48,911 bases of DNA from an uncultured Alcanivorax sp. (lineage in GTDB: Bacteria > Pseudomonadota > Gammaproteobacteria > Pseudomonadales > Alcanivoracaceae). Position numbers and translations under genes: made by a program. Where the stretch lies: the NCBI GenBank assembly GCA_913055795.1, contig CAJXLA010000008.1, positions 1 through 48,911 of the forward strand, read 5' to 3'. The notes beneath the pieces were generated by a model. That model was not told the DNA's origin and did no database searches. It saw nothing but the letters and a program-made list of their open reading frames with translations. Shown piece by piece: positions 2,889-46,112 of the stretch. The stretch's first letter is position 1. Each line of letters starts with the position of its first letter.

Positions 2889-3268
2889 CTACGGTCCTCC
2901 GAGCTGAGTCAGTGAATGTTCTCCCCCTGGCAGGGGGAGTTAGGGGGGGGGTGGCGCAAAGACAGTTTTTAGCGTTCTGGAAAGACCCCTCCTTTTGCTT
3001 TTCCTCCCCTTGCCAGGGGAGGAAATCAGAGGGCTCCCTTGGCAGGGGGCAACCAAAGAAGGGACTGAACCCGATCCGTTGCAGATGCGCACAGCGTTTA
3101 TGCCCTTTGGGTGCACCCTACGGCTTCAGCGTCCTCATTCGAACGCCCGATCCTGTCACCAGACTCCGGAGAACCCCTCCTTTGTATTTCCTCCCCATGC
3201 GAAGGGGAGGAAAATTCTTCTCCCTCTTGCCAAGAGGGAGATCACAGAGGGGGTTCCCCGGAAAAACA
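2889..3268. repeat. Cluster of short G/C-rich hairpins
   Basis: This non-coding stretch holds at least four small palindromes of one family: CTCCCCCTGGCAGGGGGAG near 2922, CTCCCCTTGCCAGGGGAG near 3005, CTCCCCATGCGAAGGGGAG near 3192 and CTCCCTCTTGCCAAGAGGGAG near 3220. Degenerate trailing GATCAGAGGGGGTT-like tails follow some of them. A third copy of the uup 3' repeat arm sits at about 3086-3123. The layout resembles REP/BIME intergenic repeats. Open frames across it are low-complexity and not credible genes. Confidence 0.6.
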
Positions 3269-3324
3269 AGGGCGCCTTCGGCACTCTCTTTTTTCTTGCT
3301 CCTTGCTCCTTGCTCCTTGCTCCT
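3269..3324 (-). terminator. Heptad array and terminator after the rutE-like gene
   Basis: Read on the minus strand, the TGA stop is followed at once by four copies of AGGAGCA, then A-rich sequence, then a short hairpin (GTGCC-GAA-GGCGC) and TTGTTTTT. The plus-strand form is CTTGCTC repeated four times at 3295-3322. The hairpin and T-run suggest intrinsic termination. The heptads are one case of the array class described in the findings. Confidence 0.55.
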
Positions 3325-3915
3325 TCATTCGAAGGATGCCACTTCTTCGAATGACGGCCGGGGGCCGCGTGGATAGAGCGCTTCGCGGTCACCGTAGCCC
3401 AGATTCAGCAGGAAGTTCGACTTCACCGAAGAGCCCGAGAAGAAGGCCTCGTCCACCCTGGCGTTGTCGAAACCCGACATGGGCCCGCAATCCAGCCCCA
3501 GCGACCGCGCCGCCATGATCAGATAACCGCCCTGAAGTGTGGCGTTGCGGAAGGCGTTGTACCAGGCCAGATCCGGGTCGTTCGCAAACATATCCCGCGC
3601 GCCGGGGAAGACCGGGAAGAGTTCCGGCAGCTTCTCGTAGAACTCGTGATCGGTGGCCACAATGGCGGTCACGGGCGCGGTCATGGTCTGCTCCACATTG
3701 CCCTCGGCCAGCGCCGGCTTGAGCTTCTCCTTCGCCTCGGGGCTCACCAGATAACGCACCCGCATGGGCAGGCAGTTCATGCTGGTGGGGCCCCACTGGG
3801 CCAGCTCATGAACCTGGCGCAGCAGGTCCTCGGATACCGGCTTATCCTGCCAGGCGTTGAAGGTGCGCGCCTGGCTGAAAACCTGCTCCAGCGCCTGTTG
3901 ATCGATCGAATCCAT
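3325..3915 (-). CDS. rutE: Nitroreductase family protein, RutE / malonic semialdehyde reductase type
   Basis: A 196-residue flavoprotein of the nitroreductase fold. The N-terminal RTFNAWQDKPVSEDLL and LAQWGPTSMNCLPMR segments are typical of the FMN-binding RutE/YdfN branch. The mid-region DLAWYNAFRNATLQGGYLIMAARSLGLD and MSGFD also match. RutE reduces malonic semialdehyde to 3-hydroxypropionate in pyrimidine degradation using NAD(P)H, but no rutABCD genes are present, so a general enal or nitro reductase role is equally possible. It is divergent from a LysR regulator across a 157-bp region with dyads, suggesting control by that regulator. The 3' end runs straight into a heptad repeat array. 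Confidence 0.8.
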   Translation of the reverse strand: MDSIDQQALEQVFSQARTFNAWQDKPVSEDLLRQVHELAQWGPTSMNCLPMRVRYLVSPEAKEKLKPALAEGNVEQTMTAPVTAIVATDHEFYEKLPELFPVFPGARDMFANDPDLAWYNAFRNATLQGGYLIMAARSLGLDCGPMSGFDNARVDEAFFSGSSVKSNFLLNLGYGDREALYPRGPRPSFEEVASFE

Positions 3916-5570: not shown

Positions 5571-5625
5571 GCGCGCTATAGCGCGCAAAAAAAGTAGCAA
5601 GATCCAAGTGGCAAGTCGCAAGAGA
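5564..5625. repeat. 30-bp perfect palindrome followed by heptads
   Basis: 5564-5593 is a perfect palindrome: seven T, GCGCGCTA, TAGCGCGC, seven A. It shares its T-run with the preceding terminator. From 5587 heptad units follow (AAGTAGC, AAGATCC, AAGTGGC, AAGTCGC, AAGAGAG). On the minus strand it could terminate the small membrane protein gene that ends at 5685. Confidence 0.7.
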
Positions 5626-6445: not shown

Positions 6446-6486
6446 CAGCCCTCTCGTCTTTCGGCTTTCGGCTCGCGTCTTGCAGC
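6446..6486 (-). repeat. Heptad array between HNH gene stop and the next start
   Basis: Reading the minus strand directly after the TAA of the HNH gene: GCTGCAA, GACGCGA, GCCGAAA, GCCGAAA, GACGAGA, then GGGCTGCC and the next ATG. The last heptad supplies the Shine-Dalgarno GAGAGG of the zinc-ribbon gene. Confidence 0.6.
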
Positions 6487-7053
6487 TTACGCCTGCAACA
6501 ACCGACTCTCCCGCCCGAACTGGGCCTTGAGGAATTCCATCTGGTCGCTGCGGATGCGGTGGCTGTTAATCAGGGCGAGGTATTCGGCCATGTTGGGGAT
6601 ATAGGGCAGTGCGAGCAGGTCCTGGCCGGATTCCTCGGGTTGGCGGTTGCCCTTGTTCTGGTTGCAGCGCTTGCAGGCGGCGACGACATTGAGCCAGTGA
6701 TCACCGCCGCCACGGGAGGTGGGCACGATATGGTCCCGTGTGAGGGTGTGCTCCGGGAACTGCTTGCCGCAGTAGAGGCACAGATGCTGGTCGCGGCGGA
6801 ACAGGGCGGCGTTGGTGAGCGGCGGTGTGGAGCGCGAGCGGGGATTGATGCGGCCGTCACAGGCGATGATGGAACGCAGGTGCATTTCGGAGCGTTCGCC
6901 GGTGAAGCGGCAGTGGCCGCCACGGATGCGGTAGATCACATCGCCCAGGGTCCAGGTGACCAGACCCCGGGCGTAGAGGCAGGTGGCGCTCTGCCAGTCC
7001 AGCCACTCCACGGGCTTGCCCGCGACATCGAGTCTGAGGATTCGTTCCGCCAT
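6487..7053 (-). CDS. HNH endonuclease
   Basis: 188 residues. The C-terminal half has the HNH fold with structural zinc: CLYCGK and CKRCNQNKGNR as the two knuckles, and TRDHIVPTSRGG and the nearby NVV as the betabeta-alpha metal core with catalytic His. The N-terminal 80 residues (RILRLDVAGKPVEWLDWQSATCLYARGLV) match stand-alone HNH proteins common in proteobacteria and cyanobacteria. Cells use this type as a housekeeping or phage-derived nuclease; its substrate is unknown. The start at 7053 is chosen because GGAG lies nine bases upstream; an upstream ATG at 7077 lacks one. It is followed by a heptad array and the zinc-ribbon gene. Confidence 0.85.
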   Translation of the reverse strand: MAERILRLDVAGKPVEWLDWQSATCLYARGLVTWTLGDVIYRIRGGHCRFTGERSEMHLRSIIACDGRINPRSRSTPPLTNAALFRRDQHLCLYCGKQFPEHTLTRDHIVPTSRGGGDHWLNVVAACKRCNQNKGNRQPEESGQDLLALPYIPNMAEYLALINSHRIRSDQMEFLKAQFGRESRLLQA

Positions 7054-8015: not shown

Positions 8016-9611
8016 ATGAAAATGCAGTTTGATTACGTGATCGTGGGCGGCGGTTCCGCCGGCTGTGTGCTCGCCAACCGCCTGAGTGCGAACCCGGCGA
8101 ACCAGGTCTGTCTGCTTGAGGCCGGCCCGGATGACGACAGCCTGCTGGTGCGCGTGCCCGCGGGCGTGATCGCGCTCATGCGCTCGAACAAGCGCAACTG
8201 GCGCTACTACACCGTGCCGCAGCGCCATCTCGACAATCGCCAGCTCTATATTCCGCGCGGCAAGACCCTGGGCGGCTCCAGCGCGGTCAATGCCATGATC
8301 TATACCCGTGGCCATCCCTCCGACTATGACCATTGGGAGGCGCTGGGCAATCCGGGCTGGGGCTGGAAGGATGTATTGCCCATCTTCAAGCGCAGCGAGA
8401 ACCACGAAAGGGGCGCGGACAATTTCCATGGCAGTGGCGGTCCGCTCAATGTCTCCCCCCTGACCTATAGTCACGGGGTCAGTGACGCCTGGGTGCGTGC
8501 CGCCGTGGAGGCGGGTCATCCCGATAACGCCGAATTCAACAATGATGTCCAGGAAGGTGTGGGCCTGTACGAGGTCACCCAGAAAGCCGGCGAACGCTTT
8601 GGCGTGGCGCGCGGCTATCTGCATCCGATCGAACACCGGGAAAACCTCACAGTGATCACCGAGGCGCGGGTGACACGCCTGCTGATGGACGGCAAGCGCG
8701 TTTATGGCGTGGAATACCTGCACCAGGGGCATCTGCAGACCGTCGAGGCGAGCGAAGTGCTGCTCTCGGGCGGGTCCATCAACTCACCCCAGGTGCTCAA
8801 GCTTTCGGGCATCGGTCCGGGCGAGGAACTGCGGGAACACGGCATCACGGTGCAGCACGAGCTGCCCGGCGTGGGCGAGAATCTGCAGGACCATCCGGAC
8901 GCGCTGGTGGTCCACAAGGCGCTGACCAACGAGAGCATGAATCTCTCGCCCACCTGGCTGCCTCATGCCATCAAGGCCATCTGGAACTGGCTCATGCGCC
9001 GGGCGGGACCGCTCACCTCCAATGCCGCCGAAGCGGGCGGGTTCATCAAATCGCGTCCGGAAGAATCCATTCCGGATCTGCAGCTGCATCTCACCGCCGC
9101 GCGGCTGGACAACCACGGCCTGAACACCCTGTTCAGCATGGGCTACGGCTTTTCCGGCCATGTCTGCATCCTGCGGCCGAAGAGCCGGGGCCGGGTAACG
9201 CTGCAAAGCGCCGACCCCTATGCGGATGCGCTCATTGATCCGAATTTCCTGGCCGATCCGGAAGACATGGAAAACATGGTGCGCGGGGTGAAACGCATGC
9301 GCGAGATCATGGCGCAGCCGGCGCTGGACGGACAGCGCGGCGACGAGCTCTTCCCCGGCGCGCATGTGCAGACGGACGACGACATCCGCGACTTCATCCG
9401 CCGCAAATGCGACAACATCTATCACCCGGTGGGCACCTGCAAGATGGGCACGGACGACATGGCCGTGGTGGACCCGGAACTGCGGGTGCACGGCATCGAG
9501 GGTCTGCGTGTAGTCGATGCCTCCATCATGCCCACGCTCATCGGCGGCAACACCAATGCGCCCACGGTGATGATCGCGGAGAAGGCCGCGGATATGATGC
9601 TTGAAGAGTAG
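8016..9611 (+). CDS. GMC-family FAD-dependent oxidoreductase (choline/alcohol dehydrogenase-like)
   Basis: 531 residues. The FAD-binding GGGSAGCVLA (about 11-20) and LLEAGP follow the start. GMC signature 1 is GKTLGGSSAVNAMIYTRG and signature 2 is GSINSPQVLKLSGIGP. The C-terminal active-site segment YHPVGTCKMG contains the catalytic His, and GNTNAPTVMIAEKAA ends the FAD domain. The enzyme oxidises a primary alcohol to an aldehyde with FAD. The substrate is not settled: choline (betA-like), long-chain and other alcohols are all used in the family, and no betB or betI is nearby. The ATG at 8016 is chosen by frame and homology length. The stop codon touches a heptad array and a terminator. Confidence 0.87.
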   Translation: MKMQFDYVIVGGGSAGCVLANRLSANPANQVCLLEAGPDDDSLLVRVPAGVIALMRSNKRNWRYYTVPQRHLDNRQLYIPRGKTLGGSSAVNAMIYTRGHPSDYDHWEALGNPGWGWKDVLPIFKRSENHERGADNFHGSGGPLNVSPLTYSHGVSDAWVRAAVEAGHPDNAEFNNDVQEGVGLYEVTQKAGERFGVARGYLHPIEHRENLTVITEARVTRLLMDGKRVYGVEYLHQGHLQTVEASEVLLSGGSINSPQVLKLSGIGPGEELREHGITVQHELPGVGENLQDHPDALVVHKALTNESMNLSPTWLPHAIKAIWNWLMRRAGPLTSNAAEAGGFIKSRPEESIPDLQLHLTAARLDNHGLNTLFSMGYGFSGHVCILRPKSRGRVTLQSADPYADALIDPNFLADPEDMENMVRGVKRMREIMAQPALDGQRGDELFPGAHVQTDDDIRDFIRRKCDNIYHPVGTCKMGTDDMAVVDPELRVHGIEGLRVVDASIMPTLIGGNTNAPTVMIAEKAADMMLEE

Positions 9612-9712
9612 AAAGAGGCAAGTAGAAAGTAGCAAGAAATAAGGAAAGGCGCCTTCGGCGCCCTTCCTTTTTGTTTTTCACTTTCGGCTTTCTGCTTTCG
9701 ACTTTCTCCTCT
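9611..9712. repeat. Heptad arrays flanking a terminator between convergent stop codons
   Basis: The whole interval between the GMC stop and the degQ stop is one structure. On the left are units GAAAGAG, GCAAGTA, GAAAGTA, GCAAGAA, ATAAGGA; the GC hairpin is in the middle; on the right the complementary class (ACTTTCG, GCTTTCT, GCTTTCG, ACTTTCT, CCTCTTC). Both genes therefore run into purine-rich heptads on their own sense strand. Confidence 0.8.
9643..9672 (+). terminator. Intrinsic terminator after the GMC oxidoreductase gene
   Basis: An 11-bp stem, GGAAAGGCGCC / GGCGCCCTTCC, with a TTC loop and one non-Watson-Crick pair, is followed by a T-run. It probably also stops leftward transcription from degQ, although the T-run on that strand is poorer. 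Confidence 0.85.
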
Positions 9713-11086
9713 TCATCGCAACACGATCGTGAAGATGCTGCCCTTGCGATTGACCTTGAGCATCAGGGCATCGTCGGGGTCATCCACGGCCGCGCGCAGG
9801 TTGGTCAGATCCGGCACGGGCTGGCGGTTGGCCCGGAGCAAGACGTCGCCGGGACGCAGACGCGCGCTCCAGGCACGGCTGCCGCGCTTCACCTCGGCCA
9901 CCACGACGCCCTGCTGCCTGCCGTTGCCTTCACCCGGCGCCAGATCACGCAGCTGCGCCCCGGCCAGGTGGCGGGAAATGTTGCCCCCCGCAATGGCCTC
10001 GCCCGTCTCGGGCTCGGTGATTTCCGCGGTAATGGTACGGGGTTCGCCGTTGCGCTGAATCGTCAATTCGATTTCCGCGCCCACGGGCGAGAGGCCCACC
10101 TTGTTCTGCAACTGTTGCGCCTTCTTCACCGAGTCCCCATTGACGGCGGTCACCACATCCCCGGCCTTCAGACCCGCCTGGTCAGCACTGCTGCCCGGGC
10201 GCACTTCGGTGATCACCACGCCATTGTTGCGTTCCAGATCAAAGGCCTCGGCCAGTTCCGGGTTGACCGTCTGGATCCCCACGCCCAGCACGCCCCGGCG
10301 CACCTCGCCATGCTGGATCAGCTGCTGCATCACGCTGCGCGCCATATTGGCGGGAATGGCGAAACCGATGCCCACATTGCCGCCGCCGCCCGGTGAAAGA
10401 ATGGCGGTGTTGATGCCCACCAGTTCGCCGCGCAGGTTCACCAGGGCGCCGCCGGAGTTGCCCGGGTTGATGGAGGCGTCGGTCTGAATGAAGTTCTCGT
10501 AGCGGCTCTTGCCCAGACCGGTGCGGCCCAGCGCGGAGACAATCCCCGAGGTGACCGTCTGACCCAGGCCGAAGGGATTGCCGATGGCCACCACAAAGTC
10601 GCCCACGTTCAAGTCACTGGAATCGGCAAGCTCGAGTTCCGTGAGCTTGTCCCCGTCCACCTGGAGCACAGCCAGATCGGTCTGCTTGTCCGCGCCCACC
10701 AGTTCGGCCTTGAGTCCCCGGCCGCTTTTCAACGTCACCTCGACTTCGTCCGCCCCGCGCAGCACATGGGTATTGGTGAGCACATAGCCGTTGTCGGCGT
10801 CGACGATGACGCCGGAGCCGGCACTGGTGGCCCGGCGTTGCGAGCGCTGTTCCGGCACATCGAAAAAGCGCCGGAAAAAGGGGTCCTGCATGAGCGGGTT
10901 CTGGCGCCGGACACTGGCGTAGGTGGCGATGTTCACCACCGCCGGCGACACCTGCTCGACCATGGGCGCCAGTGACGGCAGGGACCGGCCCTGGGGATCC
11001 TTGAGCGGCAGCGCCGCCGCATTCACGCTCAGCATCAGCAGGGCCGTTAGCCCAGCCACGGACACCCGATGCAGCCAGGTACTCAT
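9713..11086 (-). CDS. degQ: Periplasmic serine endoprotease DegQ/DegP family
   Basis: 457 residues. A signal peptide (residues 1-24) directs it to the periplasm. The trypsin-like protease domain has an intact triad: His107 (TNTHVL), Asp137 (TDLAVL) and Ser211 (GNSGGA). Two PDZ domains follow (about 255-350 and 370-457), the arrangement of Do-type proteases that form trimers and cages and degrade misfolded envelope proteins. The short Q-linker near the start favours DegQ over DegP. It starts 10 bases after the stop of the methyltransferase gene, so the two are probably co-transcribed. Its 3' end runs into a heptad array. Confidence 0.9.
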   Translation of the reverse strand: MSTWLHRVSVAGLTALLMLSVNAAALPLKDPQGRSLPSLAPMVEQVSPAVVNIATYASVRRQNPLMQDPFFRRFFDVPEQRSQRRATSAGSGVIVDADNGYVLTNTHVLRGADEVEVTLKSGRGLKAELVGADKQTDLAVLQVDGDKLTELELADSSDLNVGDFVVAIGNPFGLGQTVTSGIVSALGRTGLGKSRYENFIQTDASINPGNSGGALVNLRGELVGINTAILSPGGGGNVGIGFAIPANMARSVMQQLIQHGEVRRGVLGVGIQTVNPELAEAFDLERNNGVVITEVRPGSSADQAGLKAGDVVTAVNGDSVKKAQQLQNKVGLSPVGAEIELTIQRNGEPRTITAEITEPETGEAIAGGNISRHLAGAQLRDLAPGEGNGRQQGVVVAEVKRGSRAWSARLRPGDVLLRANRQPVPDLTNLRAAVDDPDDALMLKVNRKGSIFTIVLR

Positions 11087-18179: not shown

Positions 18180-18557
18180 AATATGTCCCTATCCCTCGGA
18201 TTCTCTTCCCCCAACAGGCAGACAGCGAACACATCCAGGAAGCCGTCCGCGCCGGGGCGCACGCCTGTGTGATGGACAGTCCGGATCCGGCACGCCTGCG
18301 CCCCATCAGGGACACGGCCCGAGTGCGGTTCCGCGAACTACAAGCCCTCCATCGGAAACCGGACAACACGTGCGCGCCTGGCCGACCGTCAGGTCATCGA
18401 TCAGGCCCAGGCCTTGCTCATCCAGCACCAAAACATGGATGAAGAACAGGCGTACCAGGCTATTCGCGAGTTGGCGATGGGACAGGAGCCGGAAGTTCAG
18501 CGAGGTCGCCAACGACACACACAAGTTCCGGCTCTGGGGAACGATGAAGTTCTGAAA
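18180..18557 (+). pseudogene. Frameshifted NasT-like ANTAR response regulator relic
   Basis: Three reading-frame pieces join into the end of a NasT-type regulator. The first reads YVPIPRILFPQQADSEHIQ, AVRAGAHACVMD and DPARLRPI (end of the receiver domain). After a shift near 18370 comes RLADRQVIDQAQALLIQ with NMDEEQAYQAIRELAM (ANTAR helices 1-2). After a second shift near 18478 comes DRSRKFSEVANDT (ANTAR helix 3). NasT proteins bind two-hairpin RNA leaders to allow nitrate/nitrite assimilation genes to be transcribed. The N-terminal receiver with the phospho-Asp is missing and no nas genes are present, so this is a dead remnant. A heptad-flanked terminator follows. Confidence 0.75.
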
Positions 18558-18668
18558 GTGGCAAGAGGCAAGGACCAAGTGGCAAGGAAGAACGAAGGGC
18601 GCCCCAAAAGCGTCCTTCGGTTTTTTGATTTCCTTGCTACTTGCCACTTGCCCCTTGCGACTTCCCAG
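18556..18668. repeat. Heptad arrays flanking a terminator hairpin
   Basis: Left side: GTGGCAA, GAGGCAA, GGACCAA, GTGGCAA, GGAAGAA. Right side: TTGCTAC, TTGCCAC, TTGCCCC, TTGCGAC. The two sides are complementary in class and can extend the central hairpin. It lies between the ANTAR relic and the 3' end of the ABC1 kinase gene, whose stop is 39 bases away. Confidence 0.75.
18593..18626 (+). terminator. Intrinsic terminator inside the heptad arrays
   Basis: The stem CGAAGGGCGC / GCGTCCTTCG, with an A-rich loop, is followed by six T residues on the plus strand. On the minus strand it could also end the kinase transcript, with a weaker T-run. Confidence 0.75.
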
Positions 18669-18705
18669 AGCGTCTGATGAAACCTCCCATAGGGTGCTGC
18701 CTGCG

Positions 18706-20427: not shown

Positions 20428-20461
20428 CTTATACTCGTTCCTCGCACCTCGCCCCTCGCAC
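20428..20461 (-). repeat. Heptad array after the RHH gene stop
   Basis: On the minus strand the stop codon is followed by GTGCGAG, GGGCGAG, GTGCGAG, GAACGAG, then the palindrome at 20408-20427. This is the GCGAGGN subclass also seen after ccmB. Confidence 0.65.
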
Positions 20462-22793: not shown

Positions 22794-22840
22794 CCTCGCA
22801 CCTCGCCCCTCGCCCCTCGAACCTCGCACCTCGCACCTCG
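22794..22840 (-). repeat. Heptad array between ccmB and ccmC
   Basis: Read from the ccmB stop on the minus strand: GAGGTGC, GAGGTGC, GAGGTTC, GAGGGGC, GAGGGGC, GAGGTGC, then GAGGAAA. A GC hairpin (about 22715-22735, GGGCGGGGACGCCCC) lies downstream before ccmC. The array splits an otherwise tight operon. Confidence 0.7.
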
Positions 22841-23509
22841 TCAATCCCCGGAACTGATCCGCAAGCCGGCTGCCACCGCCAAAGGCCCCAGGCTCACCGC
22901 CAGCGCCAGCAGGGCACCCAGCAGCGCGAAGACGGCATCGACGTCATAGCCGGCCAGCGAGCGTCCCACCACCCCGGCGCCGAAGATCAGCACCGGTACA
23001 TAGAGCGGCAGTACCAGCAGGGCCAGGAGCATACCGCCCCGGCCCAGGCCCGTGGTCAGGGCCGCGCCGATGGCGCCCACCACGGTCAGAATGGGTGTGC
23101 CCAGCAGCAGGCTCAACGCGAGTTCATCCAGCACGGCCGCCGGCAATGCGAAAAGTCCGCCCAGCACCGGCGAGAGCACCACCAGGGGCAGCCCGGTGAG
23201 CAGCCAGTGGCCCAGCAGACGCGCCAGCACGGGAAAATACAGGGCCACGGGCGCGACCAGCAGCTGTTCCAGGGCGCCACTCTCGTAATCCCGGCGGAAG
23301 AGCTGATCCAGCGAGAGCATGACCGCCAGCAAGGCCGCCACCCAGACCACGCCCGGCCCGATCCGGCGCAACAGGTCCGGTTCCGGATCCAGCCCCAGCG
23401 GGAACAGGGTCACCACCATCAGGAAGAAAAACAGCGGGTTGATGATTTCCGCCCGGGCGCACAGGCCCAGCCGCAGTTCCCGCGCCAGCGTGGGAGCGAA
23501 ACCGGTCAT
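22841..23509 (-). CDS. ccmB: Heme exporter permease CcmB
   Basis: 222 residues with six hydrophobic spans. FFFLMVVTLFPLGLDPEPDLL, VWVAALLAVMLSLDQLFRRDYESGALEQLL and PALPxxx-free loops match CcmB, the membrane subunit that works with CcmA in a complex that releases heme-loaded CcmE using ATP. The ATG overlaps the ccmA TGA (ATGA). The stop is followed directly by a heptad array. Confidence 0.92.
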   Translation of the reverse strand: MTGFAPTLARELRLGLCARAEIINPLFFFLMVVTLFPLGLDPEPDLLRRIGPGVVWVAALLAVMLSLDQLFRRDYESGALEQLLVAPVALYFPVLARLLGHWLLTGLPLVVLSPVLGGLFALPAAVLDELALSLLLGTPILTVVGAIGAALTTGLGRGGMLLALLVLPLYVPVLIFGAGVVGRSLAGYDVDAVFALLGALLALAVSLGPLAVAAGLRISSGD

Positions 23510-24225: not shown

Positions 24226-24262
24226 GGTGCGAGGCTCGAGGAGCGAGGGGCAAGGGGACGAT
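24226..24262 (+). repeat. Orphan heptad array upstream of ccmA and the hydrolase gene
   Basis: Units GGTGCGA, GGCTCGA, GGAGCGA, GGGGCAA, GGGGACG lie between divergent genes. Unlike the other arrays, it does not follow a recognised stop codon. Confidence 0.6.
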
Positions 24263-29358: not shown

Positions 29359-29360
29359 CT

Positions 29361-29628
29361 GGCAGGCTGTTGGACACCCCCTGCGTACTCAGGCTTTCAG
29401 GCTGGTTCGCAATCGAGGCGCTCTTTTGAAGGCGGGGCCCGCCCCCCGTCGAAAAAGAGCAACGATGAGTGCGGGCCAGCCTGAAAGCCCCGCGGGGCGC
29501 GGGCCGAAGCGCGCATCTGCTGCGCCTGCTCGCTCGGAAAGGGAACCACCCTGTCCGTCGCAATCAGGCACACCAGCTGCACGCTTCAGCCGGCGCTGAG
29601 TGCGCAACGGGTTTTTCAACAGCCTGCT
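29361..29628 (+). repeat. MITE-like palindromic element, copy C
   Basis: Full-length copy in the same orientation as A and B. The left end is GGCAGGCTGTTGGACA and the right end is GGGTTTTTCAACAGCCTGCT. Internal modules: CTTTCAGGCTGG...CCAGCCTGAAAG with a GC hairpin inside, then CGAAGCGCGCATCTGC...CAGCTGCACGCTTCAG. It lies between the convergent PF10118 and rplS genes. No flanking direct repeat is clear. Confidence 0.85.
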
Positions 29629-29660
29629 AACCTCAAACGAAAGCTTCCAGCTCCAGAGGC

Positions 29661-38111: not shown

Positions 38112-38170
38112 CAGGCCGCTTGTGTCCAATTTGCAGGGTCTGACCAGCAAATTCAAACGATAGTTTCACC

Positions 38171-38437
38171 AGCAGGCTGTTGAAAAACCCCTTGCGTACT
38201 CAGCGTGGCCTGAAGCGTCCATCTGCCGTACTTTGTCGCGACGGACAAGGTGGCTCCCTTTGCGAGCGGCACAGTACGGCAGATGGACGCTTCAGGGCGC
38301 GCCCCGCGGGGCTTTCAGGCTGGTCCGCACTCATCGTTGCCATTTTTCGACGGGGCGGACCCCGCCTTCAAAAGGGCGCCTCGATTGCGAACCAGCCTGA
38401 AAGCCTGAGCACGCAACGGGTTTTTCAACAGCCTGCT
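38171..38437 (-). repeat. MITE-like palindromic element, copy D (best preserved)
   Basis: Terminal inverted repeats AGCAGGCTGTTGAAAAACCC (38171-38190) and GGGTTTTTCAACAGCCTGCT (38418-38437) are perfect over 20 bases. Inside are two hairpins: perfect 24-bp arms at 38209-38232 and 38273-38296, and 14-bp arms at 38311-38324 and 38391-38404 with GC stems between. It is the reverse of copies A-C. It lies in the divergent region between two NUDIX genes, so it may also bring promoter or structural effects. Confidence 0.88.
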
Positions 38438-38506
38438 AATTCCGTTTTCCGGCGCCACAAGGCACAATACCCAGCGAAAGAGCCCGAAAATCGCCCCTGA
38501 AGAGCC

Positions 38507-46044: not shown

Positions 46045-46070
46045 AAAAAAAGGGGCGCCGAAGGCGCCCC
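46045..46070 (-). terminator. Intrinsic terminator after rhlE
   Basis: The perfect stem GGGGCGCC / GGCGCCCC, with a TTC loop on the minus strand, is followed by seven T residues. It ends rhlE. Confidence 0.87.
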
Positions 46071-46112
46071 ACATTATTTCTTGCTACTTTCTACTTGCGG
46101 CTTTCCACTTAT
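46071..46112 (-). repeat. Heptad array between the rhlE stop and its terminator
   Basis: On the minus strand, directly after the TGA: ATAAGTG, GAAAGCC, GCAAGTA, GAAAGTA, GCAAGAA, ATAATGT, then the hairpin. The inner part is nearly identical to the array after the GMC oxidoreductase gene. Confidence 0.75.

Follow-up and report, generated by a model that had tools for sequence, protein, structure and literature searches.

The gene ends of the window

The window (the whole stretch of 48,911 nucleotides analyzed here, with a GC content of 64%) is contig C8 of a 2.78-Mb draft genome, G000, in 169 contigs and 86.7% complete. In it, a GMC oxidoreductase gene and a degQ-like gene converge. The former ends in a TAG stop at 9609-9611, and from 9611 to 9712 there follow, in order, heptads on the sense strand, a GGCGCC hairpin with a T-run, and a pyrimidine array reaching the stop of the opposite gene. 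The initial annotation had claimed that this structure makes up the full interval 9611-9712 between the two stops, and our re-reading of the sequence bears this out. The parts are as follows:

9606-9713, no strand: whole stop-to-stop dispersed palindromic element (own-genome BLAST, folding and family search)
9604-9638, plus strand: left arm, heptads GAAAGAG, GCAAGTA, GAAAGTA and GCAAGAA, from the GMC oxidoreductase stop
9639-9678, plus strand: centre, with an A-tract, the intrinsic-terminator-like hairpin GGCGCCTTCGGCGCC and a T-tract
9679-9713, minus strand: right arm, minus-strand heptads GAAAGTC, GAAAGCA, GAAAGCC and GAAAGTG, beginning at the degQ-like stop

A GC hairpin followed by a T-run, as expected of an intrinsic terminator, is present at 9639-9678 and again at 46046-46079. 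No RNA family scored above the Rfam gathering score anywhere in the window, and a known RNA family was set aside accordingly.

Arrays had been reported at seven gene ends (rutE-like, HNH nuclease, GMC oxidoreductase, degQ, RHH, ccmB and rhlE), and each of these does carry one. Pfam backs a nitroreductase, an HNH nuclease, a GMC oxidoreductase, a DegQ-like protease, CcmB and a DEAD-box helicase at the array-bearing ends; the RHH assignment is weak, its Pfam score lying under the family cut-off. The other arrays and arms of the window are:

3288-3327, minus strand: one-armed array of GCAAGGA units at the nitroreductase (rutE-like) stop, followed by a hairpin and T-run
5592-5624, plus strand: degenerate array, an exception with no predicted sense stop before it
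6451-6490, minus strand: array at the HNH nuclease stop
18554-18588, plus strand: left arm; a small ANTAR-like ORF ends here in TGA, the GA of which is also part of the first heptad
18633-18665, minus strand: right arm, partner of 18554-18588 in a long hairpin (z -8.5), with the stop of an ABC1-kinase gene 40 bp away
20434-20459, minus strand: one-armed GCGAG array, with a TAG stop in heptad register
22795-22848, minus strand: one-armed GCGAGGN array overlapping the ccmB stop
24226-24256, plus strand: GCGAG-type array flanked by divergent genes, likewise an exception to the rule
46080-46105, minus strand: one-armed array after rhlE, followed by the terminator GGGGCGCC

The inner parts of the arrays after the GMC oxidoreductase and rhlE genes had been called almost identical; GCAAGTAGAAAGTAGCAAGAAATAA is indeed exactly common to both, and the rhlE array has 25 nt in common with the left arm at 9618.

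Three further observations concern the surroundings of these arrays. The ANTAR-like sequence at 18370-18677 is spread over two overlapping frames, one with a weak match to PF03861, and this split just before the array at 18554 suggests a frameshift or an assembly error. A palindromic repeat, GATCACAGAGGGGGTTCC ... AACCCCTCC, CCTCCCCTTGAGAAGGGGAGG, occurs at 3240-3275 and at loci on contigs C11 and C16, often directly within heptad arrays. Another intergenic repeat, about 270 bp long and starting CAGGCTGTTGAAAAACCC, is also dispersed: it lies at 29359-29629 and 38112-38440, and many loci in the genome sample carry it at 86-95% identity; it is possibly a MITE or an insertion-sequence remnant.

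Period 7 and the stop codon in the genome

We sampled 1.11 of the 2.78 Mb of G000, where a home-made, dicodon-based gene finder gave 1,002 genes (87% coding) and defined all gene ends counted here. Tandem Repeats Finder (TRF), run without any assumed motif, returned 56 period-7 arrays in this sample, compared to one in locally shuffled sequence. Almost every consensus unit rotates to GNRAGNN, that is, GAAAG (91 units), GCAAG (89) or GCGAG (81) plus two free positions; G1, A4 and G5 are kept, position 2 is A or C and position 3 is A or G. Among intergenic periodic regions, 50 have period 7, 33 period 9 and at most four any one of the other periods from 4 to 12. The preference is sharper in G031, a genome from a different genus of the family (up to 800 kb sampled, partly picked around array hits), with 78 regions at period 7 and no more than two at any other period.

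Arrays of at least three units are intergenic in 55 of 60 cases. When their distance to stops was set against that of random intergenic positions, 32 of the 55 intergenic arrays had their start no more than 10 bp from a sense stop, compared to 5.2% of the random positions. The claim that arrays start at or near stop codons is thus upheld, with 5592-5624 and 24226-24256 as the exceptions in the window. The purines lie on the sense strand of the adjoining gene, again as proposed: two or more heptads within 60 nt past the stop were seen on the sense strand of 58 of 530 gene ends, vs. 5 on the antisense strand (Fisher 4e-13). Upstream of 635 starts there was one such case on the sense strand and six on the antisense strand, so that arrays are neither lacking at stops nor equally frequent before starts.

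The period does not come from codons, as had been argued: it is out of frame, and genes have no heptad register before their stop (0.28 in the last 14 nt vs. 0.27 for all phases), which excludes a codon or C-terminal peptide repeat. The boundary of the arrays is therefore the stop itself. TAG stops of G000 do fall in heptad register, 16 of 18 in two of the seven phases (P 2e-7), as if the repeat supplied the stop. No such register was found in the congener G001, and we rejected it as a general rule, strong for TAG in G000 but missing in G001. Heptads that carry TAG themselves (GCTAGGT, GCTAGGA) occur at gene ends in the C9:9956 region and at C21:29741-29787 of G000, where the stop codon is repeated in several frames.

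Paired arms, terminators and folding

A complementary pyrimidine array had been noted on the far side of some arrays, and such inverted arms are found genome-wide. In the convergent gaps of G000, 11 had arrays at both ends, 10 at one end and 52 at neither (Fisher 3e-6). The association of arms is also present in tandem gaps, where one-armed copies are commoner. The two arms of a pair tend to be of one heptad class, most clearly in G031, which has several classes: its 18 inverted pairs have a mean class distance of 1.28 vs. 2.83 when permuted, with none of 5000 permutations as low. Thirteen of these 18 pairs lie between tandem genes, and their second arm is thus antisense. The two arms of a locus pair with each other no better than with same-class arms of other loci. 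We therefore see no sign of selection for exact arm pairing, an idea rejected on this ground, and the coupling is by class and not by fine complementarity.

Arrays had also been described as mostly leading into terminators. This holds in part: at convergent ends an intrinsic terminator was detected in 17 of 33 cases with an array vs. 24 of 121 without (P 6e-4), an enrichment that still covers only about half of the arrays, while at tandem ends the figures were 4 of 21 and 22 of 271, a difference that was not significant. An RNA-stabilizing extended hairpin, one of the functions first considered, likewise fits some copies only. The two two-armed intervals fold far better than shuffled sequences (z -4.4 and -8.5), whereas one-armed copies had no significant fold beyond the terminator hairpin.

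Dispersed copies of the element

BLAST with 9606-9713 against the whole of its own genome gave 48 matches, some overlapping or partial, of which about ten cover at least 85 of the 108 bases at 73-83% identity. The interval aligns end to end with C2:36826-36931 (80% over 101 bp), and copies on C10 and C21 are 83% identical over 100 bp. A multiple alignment of copies contains both arms and the GGCGCC/GGCGCC central hairpin, with a loop that varies. No match was found in 45 other genomes of the family, the congener included. G031 has an element of different sequence that is laid out alike, with GCGAGTAACGAGTTTCGAGTTGCGAAA and then GCCTTTCGAAACTCGCTTCTCGTCACTCG separated by a centre of about 27 nt, in 18 full copies in 800 kb; its arms are 86% and 75% identical between copies and its centres close to random (27% identity vs. 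17% shuffled).

These data bear on two proposals of the initial annotation. A mobile terminator is right insofar as the whole interval 9606-9713 is a dispersed repeat; for the heptad palindromes we found neither a transposase nor an excision product nor a duplicated target. Slipped replication fits the variation in unit number within arrays but is insufficient alone, because arms and centres are homologous at unlinked loci and the inverted arms are of one class. The same facts weigh against the reading of the arrays as pure microsatellites, in which heptads would arise separately at each gene end by slippage, their 7-nt loops evading mismatch repair, and be kept where they are neutral, after stops; polarity would then come from purine-rich, R-loop-prone nascent RNA free of ribosomes. 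The favouring of period 7 over neighbouring periods, the differing unit numbers within arrays and the fast turnover between species speak for this reading, and a slippage hypothesis for heptads is cited by Rehm et al. 2015 (PMC4692102). We nevertheless consider it unlikely, since both the homology between unlinked loci and the inverted, class-matched arms need copying or long-range homogenization.

Comparison between species

We compared orthologous 3' ends of G000 and its congener G001 (244 kb sampled, partly picked for array-holding contigs; both genomes are drafts, 87-89% complete), a comparison that the initial annotation had called for. With a median protein identity of 61%, the array was mostly present in one species only; few ends were arrayed in both, and their units differed. 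In one ortholog pair the last 12 nt, gattacgaataa, are identical, and an array follows directly in G001, with none in G000. An essential function is made less likely by this general lack of arrays common to both orthologs.

The motifs themselves change as well. Period-7 motifs at stops are CAAGGGR, GCGAGTG, CGGGCTN and GGTCRGT in G001, and CGAGTTN, CAAGCTN, CAGTKAA and GACGCCN in G031. A class-wide survey for CAAGCTN found none in 274 genomes, and an order-wide survey for CRRGYTN heptads found them in 19 of 146, scattered over families and genera. The motif thus varies by genome (GNRAG, CAAGGG, CGAGTT, CAAGCT, CAGTGAA), whereas the period, the inverted arrangement and the position next to stops are kept, and G-quadruplexes are therefore not a general explanation. 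At G001 loci L065-L142, GGGACAA units stand next to the stop, followed by inner GGGGCAA or GGAGCAA units, in an order that recurs at several loci; this recurrence suggests that whole arrays were copied.

Another reading is that a multimeric RNA-binding protein recognizes the sense purine heptads past the stop and sets the fate of the mRNA 3' end, inverted pairs being simply two separate sites. Strand polarity and stop adjacency, also in the one-armed tandem cases, would be accounted for. It is nonetheless very unlikely in our estimation: motifs change between genera while placement stays, the antisense second arms between tandem genes in G031 have no place in it, and orthologous genes show no clear conservation.

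A model for the arrays

That the copies are dispersed, adjoin stops, keep a strand polarity, have inverted arms matched in class and, between convergent genes, are associated with terminators is seen directly in these genomes. The arrays are probably the arms of genome-specific, dispersed, non-coding imperfect palindromes, REPIN-like in organization, that lie against the 3' ends of genes. In a complete copy, a heptad array pointing inward would be followed by a short centre, often a GC hairpin with A- and T-tracts, and then by a second array, inverted and of the same class; copies with one arm would be incomplete or decayed.

MutS repair largely misses loops of more than about 4 nt, and in a compact genome few insertions do less harm than those right after a stop. 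We propose that a copying process with a REPIN-like outcome spreads the palindromes and that 7-nt replication slippage may then lengthen or shorten their arms. Copies would be kept at stops because an insertion there damages neither coding sequence nor promoter. Between convergent genes, a transcribed copy would act as a putative bidirectional terminator with an extended stem, which may stop read-through and shield the mRNA 3' ends.

More tentatively, these elements could form a RAYT-independent class of bacterial dispersed palindromes, with 7-bp periodic arms docked at stops, and spread by an undescribed process in which new copies become joined to stops; the arm sequence would be replaced wholesale between species as period, layout and docking persist. 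Why seven, and why at stops, become questions that can be tested through strains of one species.

Relation to known repeats

In a study of GTAG- and CGTC-tagged REPs, those between convergent genes lie less than 20 bp from the 3' ends of both ORFs, and GTAG ends often provide a TAG stop (PMC3733652); a REPIN is an inverted REP pair with a less conserved spacer (PMC3116915). The present elements resemble this REP/BIME/REPIN group in being dispersed, placed near 3' ends in intergenic DNA, built of inverted arms around a less conserved, variable centre, able to form hairpins and, in places, a source of TAG. They differ in that their arms are tandem 7-mers, with no palindromes tagged by GTAG or CGTC. 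A true REP/REPIN family, moved in trans by a RAYT or another HUH transposase, would match the placement less than 20 bp from both convergent 3' ends (PMC3733652), as well as the inverted dimers with variable spacers and the repeat-supplied TAG stops (PMC3733652, PMC3116915), and G031 has four matches to Y1_Tnp (PF01797). We regard it as quite unlikely: a PF01797 search for a RAYT-type transposase gave no match in G000 or G001, incomplete drafts as they are, and across the family the Y1_Tnp count, by inspection, does not follow array richness. Nor is the unit a palindrome of 20-40 bp with a GTAG or CGTC tag, since the heptad consensus has no constant tag and one-armed arrays form no hairpin of their own beyond the terminator. 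With arms made of heptad arrays in place of tagged palindromes, and with no RAYT-type transposase detected, we do not call the element a REP.

Rehm et al. 2015 (PMC4692102) described GGGNATC and GGGGAYT heptads in Xanthomonas and Nostoc, with a sense-strand preference near or overlapping stops; by their count, each Xanthomonas genome has 70-75 convergent inverted pairs. The present arrays share with these the period of 7, the many intergenic arrays of 7-bp tandem repeats, the sense strand at stops, the convergent inverted pairs and the turnover of length across species. They depart from them in a genome-specific unit, GNRAGNN (GAAAG 91, GCAAG 89 and GCGAG 81, and not GGGNATC or GGGGAYT with four G-tracts), in GAAAG and GCAAG arrays without the G-tracts required for quadruplexes, and in arms that are part of a dispersed element with a terminator-like centre. 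The present elements thus resemble both REP/REPIN and Rehm repeats in placement and layout, but fail the REP tests of unit structure and RAYT and the Rehm test of G-tracts. Our results would link the heptad simple repeats of Xanthomonas and cyanobacteria to REP/REPIN palindromes, in that a REPIN-like dispersed element can have heptad arrays for its arms.

Integron attC sites were set aside on the grounds of ordinary chromosomal flanking genes and tandem-repeat arms. The TAACTGA repeats of Beggiatoaceae are likewise heptamer direct repeats abundant in intergenic DNA, but they stand just upstream of start codons (MacGregor 2015, PMC4679880), whereas the present arrays come after stops. With bidirectional intrinsic terminators, finally, the element shares a GC hairpin and A- and T-tracts between convergent genes, and it is set apart from them by the long heptad arms at its sides and by its copies between loci.
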